24,755 bases of DNA from a virus: positions 1-24,755 of the IMG/VR virus record IMGVR_UViG_3300027668_000094; one strand, 5' to 3'. The position numbers were made by a program, and so were the translations under genes. Shown in pieces: positions 10,901-21,045 of this stretch. Within the stretch, counting starts at the first letter, position 1. Each line of letters starts with the position of its first letter. Under the pieces are notes generated by a model. It searched no databases and had not been told where the DNA came from. It saw nothing but the letters and a program-made list of their open reading frames with translations.

Positions 10901-11011
10901 AGTGTTCACACTACTTATCGTATCAGTGAGTGCAGTATTCCATCTTATTGACATCTTCATACTTGAAGGCGAGAATGGTAGGACGTACCTACCTGCATAT
11001 TTCCATACCAT
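7937..11011 (-). CDS. Distal-tail-position protein with inserted LamG/concanavalin-like modules
   Basis: A 1024-residue protein whose ATG 11011 overlaps the tape measure stop as TAATG. Residues about 1-185 and 830-1024 form a shell like a minor/distal tail protein, directly downstream of the tape measure gene where the distal tail ring is usually encoded. Residues about 190-790 hold beta-sandwich modules of LamG/concanavalin type. Modules at about 195-390 and 580-775 are duplicates: both contain LPxLxIxGVE, a GAD/AYD-YxSTDxNF stretch and NRPFYTxxEL. The module at about 400-570 differs. Two linkers are also duplicated (GGAIQGTVEEGW and GGAVQGIVEV). LamG folds in phage tails usually bind surface glycans. 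The modules are encoded by much AT-richer DNA than the shell, suggesting a transferred insertion. Without the insert the protein would be about 420 residues. Confidence 0.8.
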   Translation of the reverse strand: MVWKYAGRYVLPFSPSSMKMSIRWNTALTDTISSVNTRSLSKEYPQFTVNYSALLKGAGLQFATDRVLRDLGQEVLVPMWQDVATERISDTEVAISTTDKTFYKEGLQVMLWASDTEWQIVDVEQVNPSYIKFGVNSTDWKCVVPIEEGFIASSPTTSTDRNRNTKLNYVVTIKRLDGPLSSIGGGVIPGVYVNTFETLQTDFGSVIHSPNDSFLLIDKYVGANIKYRNDAIDSSNSMIYLGGDVTNRALHIFRRNLPNDELEMFMDVGGVRKQIRSNVTFASLFPIGITKSVHASLDITNPLGLPRLYIDGVEFTDFYILINDSISSFSAVDFSYRGGATFSNGSTAYDYYWSTDSNFSSPSSIAQYAQAPNALVNNRPFYTGRELFTQVAPDVVPYSVKSFKGNGVDSYIDKSNIGASSDVFSTSFIIKHEQMTTDGFIAVVQGADTDEAYYLVGMQTNNKLIVYSYNTIFQKAFETTNAFIVGEVYEILVKLDLAFGGFKVYVNDVLQTIAETFDGLPSVANPTSLVLTLGSFNQGVRNFYKGQIAELYWGDNPLIVNSATMEQYKDGQEHFEIEAPYSFYADNATSIKLSIDVPVVIDKFIGFSVYRHIKNHDLYNNIMWISDSTNNTRFLEIHINGLPSKTIWATCVINGIYHKTVGTTASADTYIQLGEWNHFFAYLDVTTDSMALPKLWINGVEVIFNVVNTNLPLNSIAGTAPNCSGTITNGDSGADLYVSTDVNFKNQLASYSIDPDSVGSNRPFYTYKELCSGVGSDTPSIDWTSGTIQHQYKKWFGGAIQGTVEEGWEGGAVQGIVEVSPPIPAPLGPYPEDPKLTEVPIQSSKGNNYSLHINTVKSVGGVIKVNSTRSVPTVTTTHSWDNQSRAEYLDMLDFAAQCRGRKNAFDAASFKSDIIPLNEGTISDGYLDVLDPGLQSLNLVGTRFTVIRGRSWDSSEVYEVLSLENVTGGVRLVLDKAIIATIFTTDTVSNVRQSRLNSDVLEINIDSFNRSSASISVRDINEGG

Positions 11012-13245
11012 TAGATAGCCTTATATGAATCAGAAGTAGAAAGAACATTTACCATAGTGTCTTCACCTTCTTTAGTGTTTAAGTATTCCCCAACTACGCC
11101 AGGGTCTATTACGTTGACAATGTTAACTCTAGCACTAGAATTAATGTTCGGCCTGAAGCTTGGTGCCGGTGCTGCTGAAGGTGCTGTAGCAGAAGATAGT
11201 CCGGTCATTCCCGCCGTAACTGCATCACCCATGTAAGTGCTCCCTCCGCTGTCACTGCCTTGCATGCCCGACACACTACCTTTAAGCATATCAAATAGTG
11301 GATTAGTCACAAACTCTTTCGTGCCCATGACAGCTATGTCTCTTGCAATACCCTTAATCACATCTTTAACAATGTCACCAAAGTCCTGCCAACCTTTACC
11401 TGATTGGAACAATAGCTCTGACATATTGACTAGCCCTTCAGCAGAAGACTGGCTAAAACCATCCATCGCGCCGTGAAGCTCTTTGACAAAGCCTGTTAGC
11501 TCTTGGGTCTTAACTACCATGTTATCGACTAGGGTGTTATAGTCCGCCATGTAGATAGCTTGTGCAATGTTAAAGTCCTCTTGAGATATCTTATTAAGGG
11601 AAAGAAGATCATTGTACTTAGAAAGGCCCTCTTGGCCCTTTTGATATGCCTTGCCAATGTCATCCTGAGAAGAAGCTATGTCCTTATTGAAGTCAATGAG
11701 AGTCTTACCAAGAGCTAAAAGTTTCTCCTTAGCAGCTAACTCTCTTGCTAGGCCTATCAAGTCATCTTTGGTAGCGTTCTTTTTCTTCTCCCTGGTCATG
11801 TTGATAATCTCACCTTGAATCTTAGATTCTCTAGTGACACGGCCCATCATTTCTAGTTCGTCCTGTAAAGCTTTGAGCCTATCACCCATTGGATCTTTCT
11901 CAGTCTTAACTTTCGCTCCTTTTGCTCCCCCTTGTATCTTCTTCACTAAATCTTCGAGCTGTTTCTTCAGTGAGTCAATAGACACTTTAGGGCTATTAGC
12001 ATTCTTCTCCACTAGATCCCAGTAAAGCTTCTCATCTGCTGTCGCTTGCCTTGATGCCTTGGAAAGCGCAACCTTAGCATCGATTAGCTCATCAAACACT
12101 TTAGTCCCTACGTCAGCGTTACCGAAGTTGGCTGCCCAATCAAACTGCCACTGTGCAAACCCTGATTGTATTTTAGCATAAGCGAGTTTTACTTCACTAG
12201 CTAGTACATTTAACCCTTGCTTGAATGCAGGATACCCATCCCAAAAAGCAGCGAATATTAGTCCTACTGCTGTTGCTACTAAAGCTATTGAAGCCACCAT
12301 AGCGAGGAGTGGGAGGTTTGCTGTCACAAATGCCGTACCGAAAGCTATGATAGTGGGTACTGCGGCCACTAAAGCACCTACAAGTAGTGTGCCTATCATA
12401 GGAAGTATTATGTGAAGACTGTCTGCGATTAACATAAACACCATTGCTAGGGCTGATGACACTTTAGTGACTTCAAGTATCTTACCTATCACTAGTGTCA
12501 GATTGTTGTTTAGTACTGTCATAGCACCACTGATAGTAGGTGAAATGCTCTTGGATTCTTCTCTTAGTTTCTCTAGCTCCATGACTAGCGCAGGCAGTAC
12601 CTTCTCGGCGGTTATCTTACCTTCGGCACCTAGTTCTTTAAGCTTGGAAGTAGAAACGCCCATAGCGTCAGCAAATATGCGCTGTAGTCGTATGTTACCC
12701 TCTAGTATGTTCTTAAGTTCGTCACCATCGAAGCGGCCTTTCGCCAAACCCTGTGTGAACTGTATGATTCCACTTTTAGCTTCCTGTGAAGTTGACCCTG
12801 ATATCCTAAGAGTCTGGGATAGTGCTTCAGTCACAGCAAGCACGGACTCCGCTTGTATATTGTACTCTTTCATGGAAGTGCTTATTCTATTAAATAGAGT
12901 GGCATTAGATTCTAGATCAGTGTATGTACGGGTGCTTATGTCATTCAAGCCTCTTATCACATCTGCTCTGTCCTGTTCAGACTTAGTAACAAGTTTAACT
13001 CGTGAATTAAGATTCGTATATGAGTCCGACATCTTAGCGATAGCAGATATCCCTGTACCAACTACAAGAGCTGATATAGCAGTTCTGAATATATTAATGC
13101 TTGAGACCATAGAAGAAAGACTAGCATTAGTCTTCTTCCCTTGAGTCTCTATACCTTTTAGTTTTCGCTTAAGTGCCTCTACTTGATCCTTAGCCTTGGA
13201 AGCGTCTACGGTTATCCGTATTACTCTCTCTGTGCCTTTAGCCAT
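11011..13245 (-). CDS. Tail tape measure protein
   Basis: A 744-residue protein starting at ATG 13245 with AAGGGG upstream inside the end of the chaperone frame. The N-terminal 220 residues match the tape measure N-terminal domain (SDSYTNLNSRVKLVTKSEQD, then QFTQGLAKGRFDGDELKNI). A hydrophobic zone with probable membrane segments spans about residues 264-335. It is followed by a Lys/Glu-rich helical part (about 430-560) and a C-terminal region with FGDIVKDVIKGIARDIAVMG, as in lambda H-like proteins. Tape measures set tail length at roughly 1.5 angstrom per residue, so a tail near 110 nm is predicted. The hydrophobic part probably helps DNA cross the inner membrane. Confidence 0.93.
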   Translation of the reverse strand: MAKGTERVIRITVDASKAKDQVEALKRKLKGIETQGKKTNASLSSMVSSINIFRTAISALVVGTGISAIAKMSDSYTNLNSRVKLVTKSEQDRADVIRGLNDISTRTYTDLESNATLFNRISTSMKEYNIQAESVLAVTEALSQTLRISGSTSQEAKSGIIQFTQGLAKGRFDGDELKNILEGNIRLQRIFADAMGVSTSKLKELGAEGKITAEKVLPALVMELEKLREESKSISPTISGAMTVLNNNLTLVIGKILEVTKVSSALAMVFMLIADSLHIILPMIGTLLVGALVAAVPTIIAFGTAFVTANLPLLAMVASIALVATAVGLIFAAFWDGYPAFKQGLNVLASEVKLAYAKIQSGFAQWQFDWAANFGNADVGTKVFDELIDAKVALSKASRQATADEKLYWDLVEKNANSPKVSIDSLKKQLEDLVKKIQGGAKGAKVKTEKDPMGDRLKALQDELEMMGRVTRESKIQGEIINMTREKKKNATKDDLIGLARELAAKEKLLALGKTLIDFNKDIASSQDDIGKAYQKGQEGLSKYNDLLSLNKISQEDFNIAQAIYMADYNTLVDNMVVKTQELTGFVKELHGAMDGFSQSSAEGLVNMSELLFQSGKGWQDFGDIVKDVIKGIARDIAVMGTKEFVTNPLFDMLKGSVSGMQGSDSGGSTYMGDAVTAGMTGLSSATAPSAAPAPSFRPNINSSARVNIVNVIDPGVVGEYLNTKEGEDTMVNVLSTSDSYKAI

Positions 13246-13247
13246 AT

Positions 13248-13565
13248 TTATTTCCCCTTAGTGTTCTTCTTAGCCCATTCTGTTGTAACTAAATCTAGCT
13301 TTTTTATGCAGAACCAAAGCATATCAAAATCAAAAGTGTCTAAATCATTGAGTGTTGCCCACTTCTTCACGACTGTCCAGGGTATTGCGTTAATACCCTC
13401 AAAAGCAGGGGGTCTACAAGTTGCTAAATCAATAAACGCCTCCCACACCCACTCTAGTCCTGAAATATCAGGTAGAGCTAAAAGTGCAAGAGGCGTGTAT
13501 TTATCAGTGATTTGGTCAGTCAAAAACTCCGCTGAATCACTCCACTTATAGTGCCACTCTAGGAA
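13248..13565 (-). CDS. Tail assembly chaperone T domain, expressed by -1 frameshift (G-T fusion)
   Basis: This frame is open from the slippery site at 13571-13565 to the TAA at 13250-13248 and encodes 105 residues starting FLEWHYKWSDSAEF. It is the -1 frame relative to the upstream chaperone gene. A shift at GGGAAAT would give a 242-residue fusion spanning 13975-13248. The sequence, Trp/Phe-rich and helical (GLEWVWEAFIDLATCRPP, then LWFCIKKLDLVTTEW), resembles the C-terminal T part of such fusions, which binds the tape measure during tail assembly. The only internal start is TTG at 13523 with GGAG just three bases before it, so independent translation is unlikely. The tape measure gene starts three bases downstream. 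Confidence 0.85.
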   Translation of the reverse strand, partial: FLEWHYKWSDSAEFLTDQITDKYTPLALLALPDISGLEWVWEAFIDLATCRPPAFEGINAIPWTVVKKWATLNDLDTFDFDMLWFCIKKLDLVTTEWAKKNTKGK

Positions 13566-13975
13566 TTTCCCAAGGTGTCAGCCACGCCTCCGTGTAGTGC
13601 AGGAATGAATGACTCCCGGTCTTCAGCGTACTCCTTAATCTGCTCGAACAAGTCCGGCAGGTCAGTGAATAGCTTAACCACGTTCTCATGCGAGAACTTA
13701 AGGGCCTTGCCTTCTTTATCTGTAACGCCTTCCCATCCCTTAATCACTGAATCAGCAAACACATTTACTAGAATGCCCTGTGCCATTTCATCATCCAAGG
13801 TTCCTGCTTTGATAGCAAACAAGAAAGGTTTTGTTCTCTTTCTAGAGGCTTTAGCATAAGCAGGGTTAGATTTACCTGCTCTAGCTACTTTGAAAATAAC
13901 TCCGTCTCCGAAGTCAATCTCAATACCCTCTGTCTCTGACTTATTGTCAGTGTCAAACTTTTTATATAAACTCAT
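13559..13975 (-). CDS. Tail assembly chaperone G-like protein
   Basis: A 138-residue protein with AGAGGGG six bases before ATG 13975. Its sequence is typical of phage tail chaperones upstream of tape measure genes: a small beta N-terminus (GIEIDFGDGVIFKVARAGKS), a helical KASRKRTKPF stretch, a GWEGVTDKEGKALKFS core and LFTDLPDLFEQIKEYA. It probably coats the tape measure with the longer G-T form and brings tail tube subunits during assembly, and is absent from virions in the lambda model. The gene ends GNS-stop, with the slippery heptamer overlapping the G and N codons, so most ribosomes stop here and a minority make the fusion. Confidence 0.9.
   Translation of the reverse strand: MSLYKKFDTDNKSETEGIEIDFGDGVIFKVARAGKSNPAYAKASRKRTKPFLFAIKAGTLDDEMAQGILVNVFADSVIKGWEGVTDKEGKALKFSHENVVKLFTDLPDLFEQIKEYAEDRESFIPALHGGVADTLGNS
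13565..13571 (-). promoter_or_regulatory. Programmed -1 ribosomal frameshift site GGGAAAT
   Basis: On the minus strand the zero frame reads G GGA AAT, exactly the X XXY YYZ pattern; lambda G-T uses GGGAAAG. After slippage the tRNAs re-pair with GGG AAA and continue with TTC into an open frame. The zero-frame stop is two codons on (13561-13559). A GGAGG sequence at 13591-13587 lies 15 bases upstream and could stimulate slippage as internal Shine-Dalgarno sequences do. I find only a weak 4-bp hairpin downstream. Confidence 0.88.
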
Positions 13976-13994
13976 AGTGTCCCCTCTGAGTATG

Positions 13995-15128
13995 TTAAGC
14001 TACATCAATCTGTATCTGACAACCAGTTACAGTATCTAATTTAGCTGTGAAGTCCAGTTCTTGCATAATATCAGTATCAATACCGGAAGCTGCGACTGGG
14101 TTACTTGTAATCTTAGCATTTGGTACTGTTACTCGCAAGGCATTACCTACAGAGTCTCTAAACCCGAATGAGATTGCAATACTTGTGTGGTTAAAGAATA
14201 CATCAAGTAGCCCTCTGTTTTTGAAGTAGGCTGTAAGTGATCCTGTCACTTCCATTTGGCCATAACCTATCCCTACCGCATACTTAGAGCATACTGCGTC
14301 TTGCGCTCTCAGCTTATTGTCTAGTGACACACTGACTTTTTGTATAGGAGTATCTGACACTGCACCGTCAATCTGAACACAGCCCATGTCAGTAGTTGCG
14401 TTGACAACCTCTGAAGAAGTGGGTGCTACTGGCGAGGACACGAAAGTAGTCCCACCCACCTCAGCAGAGGTTCCCATGAACTCAAAGTTTAGTGTAGCGA
14501 TTTGCTTGGCTGTAGCTTCTACAGACATCTTACCCACGCGCATTCCGATGAACTTCTCAAACACACTGATATCATTGAAAGACTTTTCAAAAGCGAAAGA
14601 CTGTTGCTCAATACCATTCCTGTATGAAGTACCTTTGATAGTAACTGTGTCGGAAGACGTAGCGAGGTCTGTGCTCACTGTCACTGCGTCATCAGAAGCA
14701 CGGACAGTGACTAAATGCCAACCGTTGTTTACTGCCTCAGCAGACCCTTGTATCTCAATGTATTGGCCGACTACTACATCAGCAAAGGCACCAATAGCGT
14801 CAATCACATTTGTAGTGACAGTAAATGTCGCTGAACCTGAGAAATTAGTAGTGCTGCCCGGTAGTCCGCATAGCGCAGCTTCATAGAATGTATCATAAGT
14901 AGTCAGTGACAACTCCCCATCTACTGACCCACCTGAGCTTCCGCCCACTTCGATAACATCAGAAATGTTACGATCTGACCTAATCTCTTTTGATGTCTCA
15001 GTGGCTTTTTCAGCCACTAAAGACTCTGATGTTAATCTCATTGATGTTGCGCCTACTAGGTCGCCATCGCCAAAGGTAGTCTCTTTTTTGTAATAGACCC
15101 CTACTCTGTTTGATTCTGCTAAACTCAT
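13995..15128 (-). CDS. Major tail tube protein
   Basis: A 377-residue protein starting at ATG 15128, one base after the tail terminator stop, with AGGAG six bases upstream. The N-terminus (MSLAESNRVGVYYKKETTFG, then a long alternating beta pattern with a GSSGGSVDGELS loop) fits the phage tail tube fold. Residues about 95-170 form a Thr/Val-rich segment that may be an inserted surface domain. The C-terminal third has the second half of the tube fold, ending in FTAKLDTVTG. It would polymerise into stacked hexameric rings along the tape measure. Position directly before the chaperone genes supports the call. Confidence 0.85.
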   Translation of the reverse strand: MSLAESNRVGVYYKKETTFGDGDLVGATSMRLTSESLVAEKATETSKEIRSDRNISDVIEVGGSSGGSVDGELSLTTYDTFYEAALCGLPGSTTNFSGSATFTVTTNVIDAIGAFADVVVGQYIEIQGSAEAVNNGWHLVTVRASDDAVTVSTDLATSSDTVTIKGTSYRNGIEQQSFAFEKSFNDISVFEKFIGMRVGKMSVEATAKQIATLNFEFMGTSAEVGGTTFVSSPVAPTSSEVVNATTDMGCVQIDGAVSDTPIQKVSVSLDNKLRAQDAVCSKYAVGIGYGQMEVTGSLTAYFKNRGLLDVFFNHTSIAISFGFRDSVGNALRVTVPNAKITSNPVAASGIDTDIMQELDFTAKLDTVTGCQIQIDVA

Positions 15129-15129
15129 C

Positions 15130-15558
15130 TTATTCTCCTAAGATATCATAATTGTAATCTGCTGCTACCATGGCACCAAACCAGTTACCTGATTTGATAA
15201 GTCCACCCCCTTCTTCAAGATGAGGAGGGTCAACATCAAAGAGCTTAAGGCCGTCAAACCTCTTACCCCTAAAATATAACCTAAGTGACTCCGCTTTGTC
15301 TAAAATATCGTCTTCTGATACACTGTTAGGTGCTACAACGTGTAGTACAGCAGAACCAAGCTCTCTGTACAGGTTTGATCCTGGGGTGCCTAAAGACCTA
15401 TTCTGCTCAACTGACGCTGTGTATTGTATCGCCACGAACATGCCAGTGGTGATGCTCGGTGGCCTAAACGCTGTGGGGTCATATACATCTATTATAGGTA
15501 GTTCACCCCAAAGTGCTAGCTGCTTCTTAAATTCTGCTCTTACTGCTTTACTGCTCAT
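15130..15558 (-). CDS. Tail terminator protein (gpU/DUF4128-like)
   Basis: A 142-residue protein whose ATG 15558 overlaps the previous stop as ATGA. The sequence (FKKQLALWGELPIIDVYDPT, then GMFVAIQYTASVEQNRSLG and SVSEDDILDKAESLR) fits tail terminator proteins, which cap the finished tail tube and join it to the head. Length and position just upstream of the tube gene are as expected for siphoviruses. The family call rests on pattern and context rather than on an invariant motif. Confidence 0.75.
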   Translation of the reverse strand: MSSKAVRAEFKKQLALWGELPIIDVYDPTAFRPPSITTGMFVAIQYTASVEQNRSLGTPGSNLYRELGSAVLHVVAPNSVSEDDILDKAESLRLYFRGKRFDGLKLFDVDPPHLEEGGGLIKSGNWFGAMVAADYNYDILGE

Positions 15559-16298
15559 ATTTTAGTCCCTGTGGAAAATCCTATCTGAATCATAGGGTAT
15601 CTATTACTTGCTCTCGAACCCTTACCTTTACCTCTTGTGACTTTAACTGTTCTAGCACTGTCAAGAGATTTAAACGCATATTTTATGTACGCTGAATTGC
15701 CATACTGTAACTTAAGCAGCCTGGCTACTAGGCGGTAAACGCCCTGTGGGGCATAGTTAGACTGAGGCCTTCTCTTTCGAGGTTTGCCTGCTTTAGTCGT
15801 CCCTCCGCCGCCAATGTCATACCCTTCCATCTTCCTTGCATACTCTGCGACATTCATTAACTGCACTGTATCATCAGGAGAAAGTACAATGCTGTCAACT
15901 GAGTGTAGTGGAACCTCTTTACCATTCACCATTATTATATGGCTTGATAGATATGTACCTGACTTAACAGGAGATACTTTGCGAATAAGTCTAACTGCTG
16001 TCTCTAGTATCTCCGGCATTGTTGCTTTACGTACATAACTTACAACACCATAGTCTTTAACTGACCGAACTGAGACATCAAATTTCCTATCTACAACGGT
16101 ACGGTAGTCAGACTTCTTATGGGGGAACTCACGTCTATTAGTGAGGCGTTTTCTCTCCTCTTCTACTAGCTGTATCTGATATCCTCTAATCTCTTCAGTG
16201 CTCCACTTCTTAAAGTCATCACTCTCAAGAATGGTGACATGCTTACCTGATGACAGGCTCTTAAACTTAAATTGCTGTCTAGGGAACGCGAAGTCCAT
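15555..16298 (-). CDS. Neck/head-tail protein, HK97 gp10-like
   Basis: A 247-residue protein with a central segment typical of HK97 gp10-like minor structural proteins (TAVRLIRKVSPVKSGTYLSS). It is longer than the usual 110-150 residues because of an extended basic N-terminal region (about residues 1-85) and a Gly/Lys/Arg-rich C-terminal part (GGGGTTKAGKPRKRRPQ). It lies between the head closure and tail terminator genes, the expected slot. A role in the head-tail interface is inferred. The extra basic stretches might contact DNA or neighbouring proteins. Confidence 0.65.
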   Translation of the reverse strand: MDFAFPRQQFKFKSLSSGKHVTILESDDFKKWSTEEIRGYQIQLVEEERKRLTNRREFPHKKSDYRTVVDRKFDVSVRSVKDYGVVSYVRKATMPEILETAVRLIRKVSPVKSGTYLSSHIIMVNGKEVPLHSVDSIVLSPDDTVQLMNVAEYARKMEGYDIGGGGTTKAGKPRKRRPQSNYAPQGVYRLVARLLKLQYGNSAYIKYAFKSLDSARTVKVTRGKGKGSRASNRYPMIQIGFSTGTKI

Positions 16299-20670: not shown

Positions 20671-21045
20671 TCACTTCATTTCTAAGTATTCACATAATAT
20701 AGCCCACGCTTCTCTGGATGTCAAGGCTATTTTACATAAATACCCGACACCGTTCAATGAGCCCATAATTCTTTTCTGATCCTTCGAGACAACGCCTTTT
20801 CCATTTGGGTTTTTGAATTCAATGAGTAGGCCACAGTAGAAAGCATTTGGCAGTAGCATAATCCAATCAGGGACTCCTGGCACAACACCTTCCCTTTTTA
20901 GCTTCATGGCAGTGCCAATATCCCTTCGACCCCCATTTGGGACGGAGAAATGGAAATTATTTAGCTCAGGCTTTAGGCACCTAAGCTTGTTTATGAAAGC
21001 TGCTTGCTCTCTATGTTCGAGGTCTTGTCTTTTCTTTTTCATCAT
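20671..21045 (-). CDS. VRR-NUC domain nuclease
   Basis: A 124-residue protein (from ATG 21045) that is almost entirely one VRR-NUC domain of the PD-(D/E)XK superfamily. Key features are Glu12 in the first helix, FSVPNGGRRDIGTAMKLK, GVVPGVPD with Asp60, IEFK with Glu76 and Lys78, and the downstream Gln90. Phage stand-alone VRR-NUCs are structure-specific nucleases, probably acting on branched DNA in replication or packaging. A TTG start at 21060 would add five residues and could use GAGGGG in the stem of the terminator just upstream; the ATG lacks a good ribosome binding site, so the start is uncertain. Confidence 0.88.
   Translation of the reverse strand: MMKKKRQDLEHREQAAFINKLRCLKPELNNFHFSVPNGGRRDIGTAMKLKREGVVPGVPDWIMLLPNAFYCGLLIEFKNPNGKGVVSKDQKRIMGSLNGVGYLCKIALTSREAWAILCEYLEMK

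Follow-up and report, generated by a model that had tools for sequence, protein, structure and literature searches.

A predicted lambda-type G/GT tail assembly chaperone gene with a -1 frameshift in an uncultured siphophage

The window (the whole 24,755-nucleotide stretch of viral DNA analysed here, IMG/VR record IMGVR_UViG_3300027668_000094) very probably carries a tail assembly chaperone gene of the lambda G/GT type, in which a -1 frameshift would join the product of the zero-frame gene, G, to an extension encoded in the overlapping -1 frame, T. Sequence comparison strongly supports the programmed frameshift put forward in the original prediction: both frames match tail assembly chaperone families, the slippery heptamer, its phase and the -1 frame are conserved among relatives, and no start codon within T is conserved. 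One uncultured siphophage lineage is thereby added to the conserved G/GT class. The arrangement is an ordinary one for such phages and leaves the mechanism known from lambda unchanged, and the likely correction concerns the annotation of T, which becomes part of a 242-residue fusion instead of a 91-residue ORF starting at TTG.

In lambda, gpG is made together with gpGT, which arises through -1 frameshifting at about 1 in 30, and the G/GT arrangement is conserved among long-tailed dsDNA phages (PMC5009743, and Levin 1993 and Xu 2004, 2013 and 2014 as cited therein for gpG and gpGT). For the related phage Loki, a frameshift of this kind has been predicted before, with AAAAAAC as the motif (PMC5313236). 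The case in the window differs only in detail from what is known.

Layout of the junction

G begins with an ATG at 13975 and ends with a TAG at 13559..13561 on the minus strand, its last codons being ACC TTG GGA AAT TCC TAG. Codon reading bears out the earlier claim that GGGAAAT at 13571-13565 stands in the correct phase just before the G stop: the heptamer is read as G GGA AAT, the right phase for a tandem -1 slip onto GGG AAA, and a single sense codon, TCC, separates it from TAG. The -1 frame was also correctly described as open from the heptamer down to 13248, where its TAA ends, and comprises 107 codons counted from GGG. The arithmetic of the proposed product holds, with 137 G residues and 105 T residues giving a predicted fusion of 242 residues and a junction of TLGN/FLEWHYK. 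Mechanical ORF calling returns T as an isolated TTG-start ORF (13248-13523), which, as had been foreseen, omits the first 14 post-shift codons. The TAA of T (13248) is three bases before the ATG of the tape measure gene at 13245. The heptamer also sits within a near-palindrome, TTGGGAAATTCCTAG (13559-13573), which is identical in both close relatives.

Table 1. Features of the G/T region and its neighbours, with positions in the window
Feature	Coordinates	Strand	Evidence or remark
Tape measure protein, directly downstream of T	11011..13245	-	PF20155 TMP_3 (E 4.2e-50), phrog_339 (E 4.9e-67)
T, predicted -1 frame extension, 105 post-slip residues + TAA	13248..13565	-	phrog_3817, phrog_8233, Phage_TAC_18, dN/dS
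G, tail assembly chaperone, zero-frame product, 138 aa	13559..13975	-	phrog_313, phrog_8233, tblastn
Putative slippery heptamer G GGA AAT	13565..13571	-	In phase; identical in both close relatives; equivalents in 22 cultured phages
GGAGG, possible upstream Shine-Dalgarno-like stimulator	13587..13591	-	15 bases before the heptamer
Major tail tube protein, directly upstream of G	13995..15128	-	PF18906 Phage_tube_2 (E 5.2e-39)
Tail terminator	15130..15558	-	phrog_179 (E 5.9e-10); PF13554 below its cut-off

Identity of G, T and the neighbouring genes

G matches the profiles of two tail assembly chaperone families (phrog_313, E 2.5e-31; phrog_8233, E 2e-18), and a tblastn search with it finds matches in 267 phage records; no credible match of G to a solved structure was obtained by sequence profile. 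For T, profile matches were obtained to phrog_3817 (tail chaperonin, E 2.8e-13) and to phrog_8233 (E 9.9e-8); Pfam PF23812 Phage_TAC_18 covers only the middle part of T (residues 37-92, 30.3 bits against a curated cut-off of 27). Positions 5-129 of the phrog_8233 profile align to G and positions 183-249 to T; the profile spans both halves, and the family therefore includes the fused product.

The gene order is tail tube, G, GT, tape measure. As with lambda gpG and gpGT (lambda being known here from the literature), the pair is flanked by the tail tube and tape measure genes and has similar sizes, the G stop follows just after G GGA AAN, and the -1 T extension overlaps the end of G. Unlike lambda, where the heptamer is GGGAAAG with a Lys codon in the A site, the window has GGGAAAT with an Asn codon. 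In most relatives T is separated from the tape measure gene by a tail completion (Neck1) gene, whereas the window lacks such a gene at this place and has the two directly adjoining. Upstream of the tail terminator, within 11011-16298, a 247-aa protein of unknown function (phrog_16336) is encoded.

Conservation of the heptamer and the -1 frame

Single-protein searches with G and T identified two close relatives, the IMG/VR contigs L002 and L003, with identities of 91% and 76% in G and of 90% and 84% in T. Both contigs have the GGGAAAT heptamer followed by the same TCC and TAG, and both retain the T frame; 25 consecutive bases around the junction are identical. A further 22 cultured phages infecting Pseudomonas, Acinetobacter, Bordetella, Stenotrophomonas, Rhodobacter, Vibrio and other hosts were inspected, giving a family set of 25 (the window, the two IMG/VR relatives and the cultured phages). 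An in-phase X XXY YYZ heptamer inside an open, T-like -1 frame is present in all 25 members, so that the alignment with related phages suggested in the original prediction finds the heptamer conserved, and in phase, in 24 of 24 relatives.

In the cultured phages the heptamers, at or near the end of G, are GGGAAAC, AAAAAAC and, once, GGGAAAA. The window shares an in-phase heptamer at the G end with Nipunavirus PaMx25, Yuavirus M6, Lokivirus Loki, Septimatrevirus PaMx42 and others carrying phrog_313, phrog_8233 and phrog_3817 chaperones, to which its identity is 29-47% in G and 14-33% in T; most of these relatives use GGGAAAC or AAAAAAC, whereas the window uses GGGAAAT. An Asn codon occupies the A site of the heptamer in 24 of the 25 family members. 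All 25 T proteins match phrog_3817, and in the family alignment the T sequences can be aligned immediately after the heptamer.

The main genes of the window contain 26 in-phase X XXY YYZ patterns in 7588 codons, and such a pattern near a gene end is by itself not rare (about 5% per 15 codons). Among the 26, only the heptamer of G opens into a long -1 frame, of 107 codons; behind the other patterns this frame stays open for at most 26 codons. Taken alone in the window, this combination is suggestive; on comparison with relatives, a chance origin of the G heptamer is ruled out because such a heptamer recurs in all 24 examined. Elsewhere, the phrog_824 gene contains, at 20809-20941, three in-phase heptamer-like patterns (CCCAAAT, AAACCCA and CCCAAAT) with -1 runs of 24-26 codons, and these are probably due to chance.

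Selection on T and alternatives to frameshifting

T might also be produced as a separate protein, without any frameshift, if ribosomes re-initiated at the TTG (13523) or at a start further downstream. The T frame does contain a TTG, preceded by GGAG at a distance of three bases, and some records annotate an isolated T ORF with its own start (e.g. PaMx25). However, the TTG is replaced by CTG in L002 and by CTA in L003, and an independent T start at this codon was rejected on the ground that it is not conserved; across relatives, starts in the T frame occur at varying places, and none is common to the whole family. Relatives combining a conserved T start with the loss of the slippery sequence, named in the original prediction as contrary evidence, did not appear, the TTG being lost in both close relatives and the heptamer being present everywhere. 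The 14 codons preceding the TTG are moreover conserved in the T frame, and between the G stop and the TTG seven of the eight differences from L003 affect the third base of a T-frame codon. For the whole of T, dN is 0.047-0.086 and dS is 0.24-0.79, giving a dN/dS of about 0.10-0.20 (NG86, T frame). By these substitution patterns T is under purifying selection at the protein level, the part upstream of the TTG included, and its synthesis as a separate protein is very unlikely.

Still less likely is a fusion generated by transcriptional slippage on a run of A or G instead of by ribosomal frameshifting. Polymerase slippage can occur on runs of A, and AAAAAAC is used by several relatives, but the only runs in the window are GGG and AAA, of a length too short for efficient transcriptional slippage, and the codon phase is kept across the different heptamers. 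A sequencing error or a decayed gene is the least credible account of the break between the two frames, with a negligible probability: the window is a single uncultured virus record, but the same break occurs at the same base in two independent contigs whose G proteins are only 91% and 76% identical to its own, and at the equivalent place in 22 cultured phages.

Proposed mechanism

In the -1 frameshift reading, the following account is our inference as regards the occurrence and rate of slippage, its stimulation by GGAGG and the function in assembly. Most ribosomes would translate G and terminate at its TAG, while a small fraction would slip back by one base on G GGA AAT, re-pair on GGG AAA and read on in the -1 frame, producing the G-T fusion. 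By analogy with lambda, the tape measure protein would be coated by many G and few G-T molecules, and the T part would recruit tail tube subunits. Heptamers ending in Asn slip less well in E. coli than the Lys AAG type of lambda, and the efficiency of slippage is uncertain because the A-site codon is Asn AAT and not the Lys AAG of lambda.

The GGAGG noted earlier at 13591-13587 is found there, 15 bases upstream of the heptamer, and is a plausible frameshift stimulator. The anti-Shine-Dalgarno duplex predicted upstream of the heptamer in the window has an energy of -8.6 kcal/mol, compared with a control mean of -2.6 and a best control of -7.7. Across the family, the Shine-Dalgarno-like sequence 5-20 bases upstream of the heptamer exceeds its own control mean in 23 of 25 members (Wilcoxon p 3e-5), an enrichment that is suggestive only, because the sequences are related and the acidic codons encoded there are purine-rich. 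In L002 the GGAGG reads GGGGG.

Downstream of the heptamer, no RNA structure beyond that of shuffled sequences was found in the window (z-scores of 0.08, 0.81 and -0.40). A downstream stem-loop was rejected as a stimulator, the z-scores of the window being near 0 and the weak signals in L002 and L003 corresponding to different folds; the folds downstream of the heptamer differ among all three sequences. It is conceivable, if rather doubtful, that frameshifting on the Asn-ending heptamers of this family (A AAC or A AAT in the A site) depends mainly on an upstream Shine-Dalgarno-like element and not on downstream structure.

Annotation of T in phage records

The joined frameshift product was annotated by the depositors in four of the 22 records of cultured phages (AH03, Loki, Siara and RcRudolph). 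In the records of R6L (L018:787-1146), HD01 (L015), VneS_S3 (L017) and PW916 (L013), T is unannotated and both the frame and the heptamer are present, and some other phage records cut T back to an internal start.
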